Shown here: positions 39,607 through 45,108 of the stretch, piece after piece
Layout: the number at the start of each line of letters is the position of its first letter
Numbering within the stretch: the stretch's first letter is position 1
NCBI RefSeq assembly: GCF_016019955.1
Contig: NZ_JAECRZ010000013.1
Location: 1-64,000 of the forward strand
DNA: 64,000 nt
DNA from: Thiosulfatihalobacter marinus
GTDB lineage: Bacteria > Pseudomonadota > Alphaproteobacteria > Rhodobacterales > Rhodobacteraceae
Direction: 5' to 3'
Translations under genes and position numbers: made by a program
The notes under the pieces: model-generated
Databases searched by the model: none
Told to the model about the DNA's origin: nothing
What the model saw: only the letters and a program-made list of their open reading frames with translations

Positions 39607-40515
39607 TCAGCCTTGCAACATCTCCTGGAACTCGCGCCACTCGCGCGCGCTCATCCCGCTATTGTCCTGATCCACGGGCTCGCCTTTCAGCATCCGGCGC
39701 AAACAGTCCATCATCTGGGAAGACATCGTCACCGCGCCCATCCGGTAATCCTCGAACGCCTTGTAGGCCGCCGGCACCCAATCGGCGACCACGTCACAGA
39801 TCGCTTCGGCATAGACCCGGATTTCATACTGGGCGTGAGCATCCGCGCGCAGGCGCAGGAAATGCAACAGGTTGTGCAGATCGACCTTCCAGTACCACTG
39901 GGTATAGATATTGGCCGGCAGGTTCATGCGCGCCAGTTCCCGTGCCAGGCCTTGCTGGTTTTCCTGGCTGATCATCGCTTCGTAGCTGTCATAGGCCCGC
40001 GCACTGTCGGCCTTCAGAATTTCCAGCACCCGCGCCGCCTCTTCGCCCTGCAACGCCTCGCCCCGCCCCTGATTGTTCACCACGGATTGCGCCGCCACGT
40101 GTTCGGGCGCGGGAATATAGAATTCGCGGTCCAGGATCGAATACCGCGCCGAATACTCATTCACATTCGCCGTGCGGTGCCGGATCCACTGGCGCGCGAC
40201 AAAGACCGGCAGTTTCACATGCAGCTTGATCTCGCACATCTCGAACGGGGTCGAATGCCAGTGCCGCATCAGGTACCGGATCAGCCCGGCATCGTTCTGC
40301 ACGCTTTTGGTGCCTTTGCCATAGCTCACCCGCGCCGCCTGGCAGATCGCCGCATCGTCGCCCATGTAATCCACCACCCGGACAAATCCGTGATCCAGCA
40401 CCGGGATCGCTTTGTACAGGTGCTTTTCCATACCATCGCTGACCACGCGCAGCGTCTGGTTCGGGCTGGCACGCAATTCTTCGATCTCGGCCTGTTGTTC
40501 GGGGGTCAGCGACAT
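39607..40515 (-). CDS. thyX: flavin-dependent thymidylate synthase
   Basis: A 302-residue ThyX. The ThyX motif appears as [15 protein letters not shown], where the usual RHR-7X-S ends correctly. The [15 protein letters not shown] region and the FAD-binding [11 protein letters not shown] are also present. It makes dTMP using methylenetetrahydrofolate and FADH2. No thyA is in the window. Start at 40515 ([13 protein letters not shown]); a long upstream in-frame extension is not family-like. Divergent from the lipoprotein gene with about 200 bp between. Confidence 0.95.
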
Positions 40516-40718: not shown

Positions 40719-41660
40719 ATGATCCGCTCATTCTTGATGATGGCCGTTCTGGCCACAGTCGCCGCGTGCGGCAGTGGCGATCCGCTCAATCCCACCACCG
40801 GCGATGACGGAGGCGGGACAGATCCGACAGATCCTGTGACAACCGATCCAACGGTTCCCGACGTGCTTGCCGGCAACCTCAAATCGATCAGCTATGACGC
40901 CACCAACAAAACCGTCACGGCCCAGGTCTATGCCCTGGATTCCACGCCTGTCGATGTCGTTTATACACGCGATGCCGGGCGCGATCTGAACGGATACGAA
41001 GCCTATATCGTCCAGGAGGATTCGCTGGATCGCTTTTTCGTGGCCATGGTGGGTGAAAGCACGGACAGTTCGGTTCAGGCCGGCGTCGTGGGCGATGGCG
41101 GACAGTTCAACCGCGTTCTGCAAGGCGCCTATTTCGAACGCGACGGCGATTTTGACGCCCCCGATATTGGCGACGGGCCAAATGCCGGACAGGTCTCTTA
41201 TGCCGGCAATTATGTGGGAATGACCAATATTTCCCGCGCCATTGACCCCGGCGGCGTGCCCCCGGCCGTGGTGCCGGGCGAACCCGTGATGATCAGCGGC
41301 CAGATTTTCCTGAACGCGAATTTCTCGGACATGGCGGTGAACGGCGCGATCTATGATCGCCAGTTGCTACTGACGACACCATCCGATTTGCCGGATCTGG
41401 CGCTGATCGTAACCGAAATCGGCACCGATGGCAGCTTCCTTGGCGAAGTCGAGTATCGCGGCCTGATCGGGCAGAGCATCGGCGAATATGGCGGTATTTT
41501 CGGCGGCGAGAATGCCGCGGCGGTGGGCGGCGCCCTCAGCCTGTCCGAGTTCGACGGCGAGACGGGGCCTTTGGACAACGAACTGGAACGCGGCTTCTTT
41601 GTCCTGTCCCAGTGCGGGCAACCCGGCGCGGCAGCCATCTGTAGCAATGTGGCGAATTAA
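40719..41660 (+). CDS. surface-exposed lipoprotein candidate with TbpB-like barrel (Slam cargo)
   Basis: A 313-residue lipoprotein. A signal peptide with lipobox (VLATVAAC; Cys17) is followed by a Gly/Asp/Thr/Pro-rich linker to about residue 48 and a beta-rich domain. The C-terminal stretch at about residues 254-275 ([20 protein letters not shown]) matches the GxFxGxxAxxxGG signature of transferrin-binding-protein-like beta-barrel domains. Together with the overlapping Slam-like gene this suggests delivery to the cell surface; ligand unknown. No iron-receptor gene (TbpA-like) is adjacent. Confidence 0.72.
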
Positions 41661-43122
41661 CGGGTTTCGCACCTCACTTGAATCAAAGCGGGCCGCGGCT
41701 GCTTCCGGCGCCAGGGGCGCGATCGGGCCATCGCGGGTTCGACAGCGGGCATGCACCGCCCTTCTGACACTGACCCTGACGTTCAGCGCCGCCGCGCTGG
41801 CGGCCCAGTCCGCCCTGCCGGTCCTGACAAAGGTGCAGGCGCGCGATCTCATGGCCTATGCCTTGCGCAGCAACCAGACACAGGCGGCCGCGCAGATCGC
41901 ACAGGCGTTTCTGAGCGAAGACAAATCCGATCCCGCCGCGCATTACACGATGGCCATGGTCTATGCGCGTTCAGGCAACCTGCCCGAGGCACGCAAATCG
42001 TCCCGCCTGGCGTTCCGCTATTCCAAAAGCGATGTGCAAAGTTTCATGTCCGCCGATCTCAGCGCGCGGCTGGCCTATCAGGACAAGTCCCTCACATGGG
42101 CACAATACTGGCTGCGCCGGGCCCACACCGAAGCCCCCGACGCGGTACAGCAGCGCCGGATCGAACAGGACTTCAAACGCGTCCGCACCCAGAACCCATT
42201 CCAGTTCCGCATCGACACGTCGGTCGCTCCGTCCTCCAATGTCAATAACGGGTCCCTGTCGCGCTATATGATCATCGACGGCGTGCCGGTGATCGGTGTC
42301 AATGTGGGCGATGCCATGGCGCTGTCCGGGATAGAGGCCATGCTGAACGCGCGGTTGGGCTATCGTCTGCGCGAATCGCAAACCACCGAAACCCGCGCCG
42401 TGGCACGCTATTTCATGCGCCGCGTGACCCTGTCGGATGACGCCAGGCAAACCGCGCCGGGCGCACGCGGCTCGGATTATGCGTATTCCCTGCTCGAAGG
42501 CGGGTTGCGACATGCGTTTCGCCCCTCGCGGGACGGCCCGGTCTGGAGCGTTGGCGCGCTGGTCGGACGCGCCTGGTACGCCAACGACCCCTCCTATGAT
42601 CTGGCCCGCCTCGAAGGCGGTGGCACCTGGCAAAAACCGGGCAACCGGACATTCTCGATCCTGGCCAAGCGGGAATGGCGCCGGGAAACCAGCGCGCCGG
42701 GCGGCACCGATGTCTTTACCGGCCTCACTTTCGGATATTCGAAAAAGCTGAAATCGGGCGACGCGCTGTCGACCCTGATCAGCCTGAACAAGACCGACGA
42801 TGCGACCCCGGCATTCTCGTCCCGCGGGGCGGGTGCGCAGATTCGCTACACGTTCGACAAACCGATCGGAACCGTGCAGCTCAGCACCGCGCTCAGCGCC
42901 GGGTTCAGCGATTATTCCGATTACCGGGTCGGGTTCATCCAGGTTCCCGGCGGGCGGCAGGATCTTTCACTTTCGGGCGAGGTGGAACTGTCCTTTCTGA
43001 ACATGCAATATGCCGGCTTTGCCCCCACATTGACGTTTCGCGCCCTGACGACTGATTCCAACGTCAGCCGGTTTGACACCCGGCAATTCTCGGTGAATAT
43101 CGGCATCCGCTCGGCCTTTTGA
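41647..43122 (+). CDS. Slam-like outer-membrane translocator (DUF560, type XI secretion)
   Basis: A 491-residue outer-membrane protein. A long basic lead is followed by a hydrophobic signal segment (ALLTLTLTFSAAALA). An alpha-helical TPR-like domain comes next (about residues 55-170, SNQTQAAAQIAQAFLSEDK and AHYTMAMVYARSGN). The C-terminal half is an alternating amphipathic beta barrel ending with Phe (IGIRSAF), as needed for BAM insertion. Architecture and adjacency to a TbpB-like lipoprotein match Slam proteins. Starts 14 bp inside the lipoprotein gene. Confidence 0.75.
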   Translation: MWRINGFRTSLESKRAAAASGARGAIGPSRVRQRACTALLTLTLTFSAAALAAQSALPVLTKVQARDLMAYALRSNQTQAAAQIAQAFLSEDKSDPAAHYTMAMVYARSGNLPEARKSSRLAFRYSKSDVQSFMSADLSARLAYQDKSLTWAQYWLRRAHTEAPDAVQQRRIEQDFKRVRTQNPFQFRIDTSVAPSSNVNNGSLSRYMIIDGVPVIGVNVGDAMALSGIEAMLNARLGYRLRESQTTETRAVARYFMRRVTLSDDARQTAPGARGSDYAYSLLEGGLRHAFRPSRDGPVWSVGALVGRAWYANDPSYDLARLEGGGTWQKPGNRTFSILAKREWRRETSAPGGTDVFTGLTFGYSKKLKSGDALSTLISLNKTDDATPAFSSRGAGAQIRYTFDKPIGTVQLSTALSAGFSDYSDYRVGFIQVPGGRQDLSLSGEVELSFLNMQYAGFAPTLTFRALTTDSNVSRFDTRQFSVNIGIRSAF

Positions 43123-43196: not shown

Positions 43197-43625
43197 ATGC
43201 ACGTGAAATACCTGCACACCATGGTCCGCGTGGCCGATCTTGAAAAATCCATGGCCTTCTACGCCCTTCTGGGGCTCAAGGAAATCCGCCGCTACGAAAG
43301 CGAGGCGGGCCGCTTCACCCTGGTTTACCTGGCGGCGGACGGGGATCACGATTGCCCGCTGGAACTGACCTGGAACTGGGACGGAGATGACGGCCTGCCC
43401 AGCGACAGCCGCCATTTCGGCCATCTCGCCTACGAGGTCGGCAATATCTACGAAATGTGTCAGCACCTGGCCGACAACGGTGTGGCAATCAATCGCCCGC
43501 CGCGCGACGGGCGCATGGCCTTTGTCCGCTCGCCCGACAATATCTCGATCGAGCTGTTGCAACAGGGCGAGGCGCTGGCCCCGGCCGAACCCTGGGTCGG
43601 CATGGACAGCACGGGACACTGGTGA
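43197..43625 (+). CDS. gloA: glyoxalase I (lactoylglutathione lyase)
   Basis: A 142-residue VOC protein. Expected metal ligands are present: His in KYLHTMVRV, Glu in LELTWNW, His in FGHLAYEV and Glu in ISIELLQ. This matches the short Ni/Co-type bacterial glyoxalase I, which turns the methylglyoxal-glutathione hemithioacetal into S-lactoylglutathione. ATG at 43197 after CAGGGAAA. Its stop overlaps the next GTG start (GTGA), so a DUF1194 pair is translationally coupled to it. Confidence 0.92.
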   Translation: MHVKYLHTMVRVADLEKSMAFYALLGLKEIRRYESEAGRFTLVYLAADGDHDCPLELTWNWDGDDGLPSDSRHFGHLAYEVGNIYEMCQHLADNGVAINRPPRDGRMAFVRSPDNISIELLQQGEALAPAEPWVGMDSTGHW

Positions 43626-44341
43626 TCCGCTGGGCGGCGGTTCTGGCCGGGGCGCTGGCGGGCACGCAAGCGTCCCCTGCCGCCGACTGCCGCCTTGCGC
43701 TTGTTTTGGCCATGGATGTGTCCTCTTCCGTGGATGCCGGCGAAGACGCCCTGCAACGGGCCGGGCTGGCCCGCGCGTTGCTGGCGCCCGAGGTGGCGGC
43801 AGCCTTTCTTCACCCGCCACAACCGGTCGCGCTGGCCGTGTTCGAATGGAGCGGGCGCGACAACCAGAAACTGCTTCTGGACTGGACGTTGATCCGGGAG
43901 CGCGCGGATCTGGAGCAGGCGTCCCGCGCGCTGGCCGGCTCCACCCGCAGCACCGATCAGTTTCCCACTGCGTTGGGCCATGCGGTGGGCTACGCCGCCA
44001 TCCTGCTGCAATCCGCGCCGCCCTGTATCGCACAGACGATCGACGTAAGCGGCGACGGGCGCAACAACGAGGGCTTTACCCCCCGTCAGGCCTATGCTCA
44101 TTTCCCCTTTGACGGCGTCACCGTGAATGGCCTTGCCATTGAAACCGCCGGGAATTCCGGCGCCTCTGAAACATTTGGAGATGCGGTTATGGCCGAATAT
44201 TACCGCGAGCACCTGTTGCTTGGCCCGAACGCCTTTGTTCAAGAGGCCGGGGGGTTTGCCGATTTCGAACGCGCGATGCGGCGCAAATTGCTGCGCGAAC
44301 TGGGGGGCGCAGCCCTTTCCCGAATGGAACAGCGCCCATGA
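43622..44341 (+). CDS. DUF1194 secreted vWA-like protein, first
   Basis: A 239-residue protein with a signal peptide and a von Willebrand A-like fold. LAMDVSSSVDAGEDAL is the MIDAS-like DxSxS loop, followed by FEWSGRDNQ and the second acidic loop IDVSGDGRNNEGF. DUF1194 proteins are common in rhodobacters and of unknown function. It uses a GTG start at 43622 that overlaps the glyoxalase stop. A paralog follows with an ATGA overlap. Confidence 0.85.
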   Translation: MIRWAAVLAGALAGTQASPAADCRLALVLAMDVSSSVDAGEDALQRAGLARALLAPEVAAAFLHPPQPVALAVFEWSGRDNQKLLLDWTLIRERADLEQASRALAGSTRSTDQFPTALGHAVGYAAILLQSAPPCIAQTIDVSGDGRNNEGFTPRQAYAHFPFDGVTVNGLAIETAGNSGASETFGDAVMAEYYREHLLLGPNAFVQEAGGFADFERAMRRKLLRELGGAALSRMEQRP

Positions 44342-45108
44342 TCCGCGCCCTGATCACCGGTCTGGCGATGCTGACCGCCGCGCCCGCAGCGGCGCAATGC
44401 CGTCAGGCGCTGGCGTTGGGGCTGGACGTGTCGGGATCGGTGGACAGGACCGAATACCGGTTGCAGCTGGACGGGCTGGCCGGGGCGCTGCGCCATCCCG
44501 AAGTGGTCGAGGCGCTGCTCTCCCTGCCCGACCACCCGGTGCATGTCGCCATTTACGAATGGAGCGGGCCAGGCGATCAGCGCCTTCTGATCCCGTGGCG
44601 CGCGATTACGGATCGGGCCACGCTGGACGGCATTGCCGCCACGCTCATGACAGCACAGCGGATCTACATGGATCCGTCCACCGCGCTTGGCACCGCCAAA
44701 CGGTTCGGACAAGCCCTGCTCGAACAGAAACCCGCCTGCTGGCGACGCACTCTGGATCTGTCGGGCGACGGCACATCCAACACCGGCCCGTTGCCGCGCG
44801 ACGTGCGGCTGGGCGGCACCATCACGGTCAATGCGCTTGTGATCGGATCGGACGACGCGCCGGCGGGCGACGCGCGCCAGACCGACATTGCCGCGCTCTC
44901 CAGCTATTTTCGGGCCTGGGTGATCGAGGGGCCGAATGCGTTTGTTGAAACCGCGCTGGGGTTTGCCGATTACGAACGCGCCATGGTGCGCAAGCTCAAA
45001 CGAGAGTTACAGGGCCTGTCGCTTGCGACAAGCCCTGCTCCCCCCACGATCCGTACCGGGGATGCTAAACCTGCGCCATACCCACGGATCGCAGCGCGCA
45101 GTCAGTAA
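44338..45108 (+). CDS. DUF1194 secreted vWA-like protein, second
   Basis: A 256-residue paralog: signal peptide (residues 1-19), MIDAS loop LGLDVSGSVDRTEY, YEWSGPGDQ and LDLSGDGTSNTGP. Differences in the loops suggest a separate ligand. The C-terminal 25 residues are Pro/Arg-rich and unstructured. Translationally coupled to the first copy; its end overlaps the 3' end of the convergent MarR-family gene by 7 bp. Confidence 0.85.
   Translation: MIRALITGLAMLTAAPAAAQCRQALALGLDVSGSVDRTEYRLQLDGLAGALRHPEVVEALLSLPDHPVHVAIYEWSGPGDQRLLIPWRAITDRATLDGIAATLMTAQRIYMDPSTALGTAKRFGQALLEQKPACWRRTLDLSGDGTSNTGPLPRDVRLGGTITVNALVIGSDDAPAGDARQTDIAALSSYFRAWVIEGPNAFVETALGFADYERAMVRKLKRELQGLSLATSPAPPTIRTGDAKPAPYPRIAARSQ

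Follow-up and report, generated by a model that had tools for sequence, protein, structure and literature searches.

Two overlapping genes in a 64,000-nucleotide stretch of the Thiosulfatihalobacter marinus genome (contig NZ_JAECRZ010000013.1, positions 1 to 64,000; here called the window) very probably constitute a type 11 secretion system (T11SS, or Slam) pair belonging to the marine ‘cluster 3’ group, in which an outer-membrane protein (OMP) exports a lipoprotein, its cargo, encoded immediately upstream. A Slam-like (DUF560) OMP paired with a TbpB-like lipoprotein had been proposed in an earlier note on this DNA, and such an OMP with a TbpB/fHbp-like lipoprotein is supported because sequence profiles, profile-profile comparison, predicted fold and conserved linkage agree; export, lipidation and surface position of the cargo would follow by analogy with the known family. 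The locus is another instance of a T11SS locus type set out in the available text of PMC12282271, not new in kind. What is added to the published picture is the regular pairing of cargo with OMP, the occurrence of empty slots, and the separation from the pair of the neighbouring DUF1194 genes. The locus is a member of a marine T11SS branch whose cargo remains in doubt, and a usually adjacent cargo of classical fold, empty slots and a DUF1194 that persists when the OMP is absent together narrow the question to whether the OMP exposes this lipoprotein.

The lipoprotein and the outer-membrane protein

The cargo opens with a hydrophobic stretch running into the lipobox VAAC (residues 14–17, Cys17 last, followed by G), which, judged from lipobox and alignment, marks a type II signal peptide. 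When 34 cargo proteins were aligned, the lipobox Cys was present in 34/34 rows and several glycines were invariant; a 13-residue stretch of the window cargo matched GxFGGxNAxxxGG, the signature that the earlier note had singled out along with the lipobox. The NCBIfam profile slam_lipo was matched by 25/34 of the aligned cargos and the Pfam family TbpB_B_D by 16/34, both at E≤1. Behind an Asp/Thr/Pro-rich linker, the predicted fold comprises a seven-stranded handle (about residues 54–141), an eight-stranded barrel (158–298) and a short tail, forming a single lobe. Handle and barrel are shared with the T11SS cargo proteins fHbp, hemophilin, HpuA and TbpB, and structure comparison matched the whole fold to those of hemophilin, HpuA and TbpB, at 11–16% identity among the matches listed; in contrast to these, the window cargo has a C-terminal two-cysteine tail. 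The two residues, Cys299 and Cys308 (window 41613–41642), lie past the last barrel strand and both are found in 28/34 aligned cargos, with gaps in the remaining six; the tail could form a disulfide or a C-terminal cap.

The OMP begins with a signal peptide, followed by seven TPR-type helices (62–182), a 14-stranded barrel (185–489) and a C-terminal Phe, which was the last residue in 36/36 aligned OMPs gathered from whole genomes. TPR_19 was matched at 25.6 bits against a Pfam cut-off of 25, in keeping with an N-terminal periplasmic TPR region and with the note's description of a TPR-like domain ahead of a barrel ending in Phe. The AlphaFold model built on the 36-row alignment (pLDDT 89.5, pTM 0.78) predicts 14 long strands over residues 185–489 plus one short loop hairpin; among the matches listed, CymA and OmpG, both porins, were the best for its barrel, and TPR proteins matched its helices. 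An extract of PMC5449769 describes Slam as having these two domains, a TPR region and a barrel of 14 strands. Structure predictions of both proteins bore out the note, the OMP model having seven TPR-type helices where an unrelated porin without TPR would have counted against it. The reading frames overlap by exactly the 14 bp that the note had reported, which may couple their translation.

Homology of the OMP to the DUF560/SlipAM barrel (PF04575) was found by comparing alignments. SlipAM was matched by 30/36 aligned OMPs at E≤1 (best 3e-8), and when hhalign compared the 36 OMPs with 15 SlipAM proteins that belong to other families in the phylum, it gave E 2e-32 over 413 columns, with 99.9% probability and 15% identity. 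These 15 were retained from 20 loci, leaving out L134, L140 and L147 (wrong frame) and L143 and L146 (near-repeats of L141 and L145). A single-genome search for PF04575 returned nothing, as it did in 14 control genomes, and hence gives no sign of absence; it was the profile-profile comparison that settled the relationship. Like Slam1 and Slam2 of Neisseria and relatives, the window OMP combines a periplasmic TPR region, a 14-stranded barrel and an adjoining cargo lipoprotein, but it is very divergent from them and as a single sequence falls below the Pfam cut-off.

By analogy, the lipoprotein would start out with a type II signal peptide, receive its lipid at Cys17 and cross the periplasm, and the OMP would then pass it, unfolded, to the outer face; according to part of PMC9090332, Slam1 carries unfolded TbpB into proteoliposomes, helped by Skp. 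The lipoprotein would refold outside and remain tethered through its lipid, with the C-terminal eight-stranded barrel presumably serving as export signal and the handle as the working part.

Linkage, empty slots and divergence

Pairing of the two genes was regular across 295 genomes of the family, where all of the following counts are among the matches listed. A cargo lay directly upstream (on the same strand, with –60 to 400 bases separating the profile matches) of 128/147 strong OMP places in 141 genomes, and of 97/116 when the 31 places used for building the cargo profile were subtracted, by genome. Per genome, 131 had both, 10 OMP only, 5 cargo only and 149 neither, counting as OMP-less those genomes with matches weaker than E about 1e-32; an OMP match at E≤0.001 was present in 176/295. 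The OMP and cargo searches scored no more than 5 or 7 candidates from each genome. Three rows were excluded for the OMP, namely G208:C108:5661, G135:C126 and G203:C140:3522, which are second pieces or a split fragment, and seven for the cargo (extra pieces in G068, G120, G079, G292, G334 and G110; the short G296:C14:352128). Among 37 OMP loci fetched individually, a set that includes the window's own locus and one species twice, single-sequence search found a cargo match upstream in 32, a further four had at that place a divergent lipoprotein with lipobox that belongs to the cargo alignment, and one (L037) had none. It is clear that the adjacency of cargo and OMP is not due to chance.

The slot between thymidylate synthase and gloA was often empty. 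In the window's genus the OMP was found in 4/25 genomes, and DUF1194 somewhere in 25/25. Of the 21 OMP-less genus members 20 were examined (G024 was left out), and in all 20 the slot was closed, with thymidylate synthase (19 thyA, 1 thyX) beside gloA and DUF1194 next; neither cargo nor OMP was found in these 20 loci, nor in 40 loci without OMP from other genera. For the latter, the gloA listing was followed from its top until 40 OMP-less genomes had been taken, passing over cargo-only genomes and G003, which was examined in the genus set; thymidylate synthase adjoined gloA in 31 of them by the counting rule, and DUF1194 lay behind gloA in 27. This suggests that the cargo and OMP genes appear and disappear together, independently of the neighbours that had been considered as cargo.

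Cargo and OMP have diverged far more than the genes flanking them, with a mean per-site difference over 28 loci of 0.62 and 0.66, respectively, compared with 0.20 for thyX and 0.22 for gloA; such fast change would suit surface proteins. Distances of cargo and OMP were correlated (r 0.76 over 33 loci, where the correlations with gloA were 0.04–0.06), and in a second set of 28 loci the value was 0.55 (Spearman 0.36), against 0.32 for OMP-thyX, 0.35 for OMP-gloA and 0.32 for thyX-gloA, lending modest support to the suggestion from these sequences that cargo and OMP evolve jointly. Exchange of the pair as a cassette between fixed flanks was considered on the basis of protein distances and was not supported: the flanks carry too little signal, since the thyX-gloA correlation is itself so low.

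Other lipobox proteins were seen near OMPs of this family. In the locus lacking a usual cargo, a second member of this OMP family stands off the usual site (L037:1501-2889) and is convergent to a lipobox protein (811-1437) ending in GEFLGAQAAP, which by eye resembles a different cargo. Beside OMPs without the usual cargo in two further loci (L047:4366-5052 and L049:2033-2857) are lipobox proteins of another type, which, by eye, have in common a GTLTG stretch and similar C-termini; from their sequences, these are possible alternative cargo.

Competing explanations and possible function

Several results weigh against a Slam pair. Taken alone, the window sequences fell short of the family profiles: SlipAM scored 15.4 bits (Pfam cut-off 22) with the OMP, slam_lipo 16.1 bits (cut-off 80) with the cargo, and the lipoprotein matched no Pfam family, so that the Pfam check for DUF560 and TbpB_B_D advised in the earlier note came out in its favour through the alignments and not through the single sequences. 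The first Foldseek match of the OMP was the cellulose exporter subunit BcsC, and no Slam was among the solved-structure (PDB) matches listed, an absence which says nothing either way. Between 17 and 19 of the 147 OMP places had no recognised cargo upstream, although for two of the 19 (L045 and L046) a direct search of the locus does reveal one. As for the other exceptions, thymidylate synthase abuts the OMP in L043 and L051, L052 begins near a contig end, and several other cargo-less OMPs have no thymidylate synthase and gloA beside them; this survey covered the cargo-less places other than G109, G181:C16, G203 and G208. Conversely, a lipobox-bearing cargo occupies the slot beside gloA, with no OMP there, in three loci (L054:3146-4261, L056:3153-4355 and L057:3141-4268). 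Finally, the correlation of cargo with OMP distances becomes just moderate once a locus entered twice (L007, identical to L109) is removed.

One alternative is that the OMP is a plain porin, or else a TPR-barrel exporter of some other substrate, such as a polysaccharide in the manner of BcsC or PgaA, with the lipoprotein as a periplasmic partner. This is very unlikely in view of the nearly full-length SlipAM profile match, the T11SS cargo fold predicted for the partner lipoprotein, and the strand number, 14 here but 16 for the PgaA type according to part of PMC8406197; moreover, no polysaccharide gene was found among the ten neighbours typed around the pair. It is also highly improbable that DUF1194 proteins are the main cargo of the OMP and the lipoprotein a secondary one. 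The available text of PMC12282271 does name DUF1194 as one possible T11SS cargo and reports it with 102/145 cluster 3 loci, the window pair has two copies beside it, and there is a weak excess of DUF1194 in genomes that have the OMP (119/141 vs 115/154 without; Fisher p 0.044). Yet three quarters of OMP-less genomes carry DUF1194, and it keeps its place behind gloA in 20/20 OMP-less genus mates and most OMP-less loci of the wider family; because it so often stays there without an OMP, an obligate link is disfavoured, and DUF1194 looks like a neighbour rather than an obligate T11SS cargo, with occasional use still compatible.

A nutrient-capture receptor, handing its ligand to a TonB-dependent receptor in the manner of TbpB or hemophilin, would accord with the fold held in common with hemophilin, HpuA and TbpB, but deserves hardly any credence. 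Neither the barrel (PF00593) nor the plug (PF07715) of TonB-dependent receptors was matched at E≤0.001 in the organism's own genome (99.82% complete, 66 contigs); among 14 control genomes the same search gave matches in three. A conserved histidine that might bind haem was likewise considered; the window protein contains no histidine at all, although His occupies the column of its Phe106 in 24/34 aligned cargos. With no TonB-receptor match, a single lobe and no histidine, the cargo is unlikely to supply a TonB receptor with transferrin iron or haem, and on the same grounds the non-transferrin ligand suggested in the earlier note, which had argued from the lack of host transferrin in the sea, is plausible. 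Nor is the cargo TbpB proper, which has two lobes and a TonB-dependent partner receptor, where the window cargo has one lobe and its genome no match to such a receptor.

With the Slam pair as the preferred explanation, the best guess is that the cargo acts in surface binding or adhesion to something in the environment, and a host with no detected TonB receptor makes it possible to test for a surface role unrelated to iron uptake. A broader proposition, reasonable to entertain but short of an even chance, is that roughly half of the Rhodobacteraceae genera in the sample might carry a come-and-go cassette of lipoprotein and private translocon, mostly at the thymidylate synthase-gloA slot, the window cargo, in an organism that appears to lack TonB-dependent receptors, being a non-nutritional surface binder and DUF1194 an unrelated neighbour. 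If so, a whole T11SS branch would have a purpose other than metal or haem uptake.

The neighbourhood and published cluster 3 loci

Features of the locus are given below. Both DUF1194 genes are probably neighbours outside the two-gene unit.

Features of the window at and around the cargo-OMP pair (positions in the window)
Feature	Position	Strand	Basis and remarks
ThyX (flavin-dependent thymidylate synthase), divergent flank on one side of the slot	39607..40515	-	Thy1 190.9 bits; start MSLTPEQQ chosen from open reading frames
Predicted T11SS (Slam-dependent) cargo lipoprotein, 313 aa	40719..41660	+	ATG 40719, TAA 41660; folds, profiles, alignment
Overlap of cargo and OMP reading frames	41647..41660	+	Open reading frame coordinates
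Predicted T11SS/Slam-like outer-membrane translocon, 491 aa	41647..43122	+	ATG 41647, stop 43122; profiles, predicted fold
Glyoxalase (GloA-like), other flank of the slot	43197..43625	+	Glyoxalase 61.5 bits
DUF1194 (MIDAS-like DVSSSVD)	43622..44341	+	DUF1194 224.7 bits; start uncertain, GTG 43622 assumed
Second DUF1194 (MIDAS-like DVSGSVD)	44338..45108	+	DUF1194 212.7 bits

The nearest named relative was Shimia aestuarii DSM 15283 (69% for the OMP, 74% for the cargo). The window has thyX, cargo, T11SS OMP, gloA and DUF1194 together and so conforms to cluster 3 by synteny. In its available text, PMC12282271 describes this gene set in 11 related strains of Rhodobacteraceae/Roseobacteraceae, Ruegeria pomeroyi included, with a cargo of 282–375 aa in 10 of the 11 loci, a range that takes in the window cargo; the same text states that all experimentally verified T11SS OMPs come from the animal-associated cluster 1. 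The present locus differs in coming from another genome, and here a cargo stands beside most OMPs and DUF1194 is largely independent of them, whereas that text gives 0.21 cargo per OMP by its own method and calls co-occurrence rare in cluster 3 overall. Limited sensitivity of detection is the likely cause of this gap, since fewer than half of the aligned cargos match TbpB_B_D even at the permissive threshold used here; this is not proven, because PMC12282271 also used other genomes and another set of OMPs.

The thymidylate synthase at the slot is of either of two unrelated enzymes: ThyX adjoins gloA in the window, and ThyA holds the same chromosomal place in 19/20 OMP-less genus mates. Within the genus, members with the OMP had 3 thyX and 1 thyA, and those without had 1 and 19 (p 0.008, regardless of relatedness). 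An association of the pair with thyX rather than thyA was nevertheless rejected, as proportions in the wider family were alike with and without the OMP: 43 different loci with it (L007 and L109 counted as one; three of the 43 being genus members) had 33 thyX, 8 thyA and 2 in which neither was found, and for the 40 loci without it the counting rule gave 23 thyX and 8 thyA, with 3 more thyX that overlap gloA further than the rule allows and 6 loci with neither close by. The identity of ThyA was verified with Pfam in two loci.
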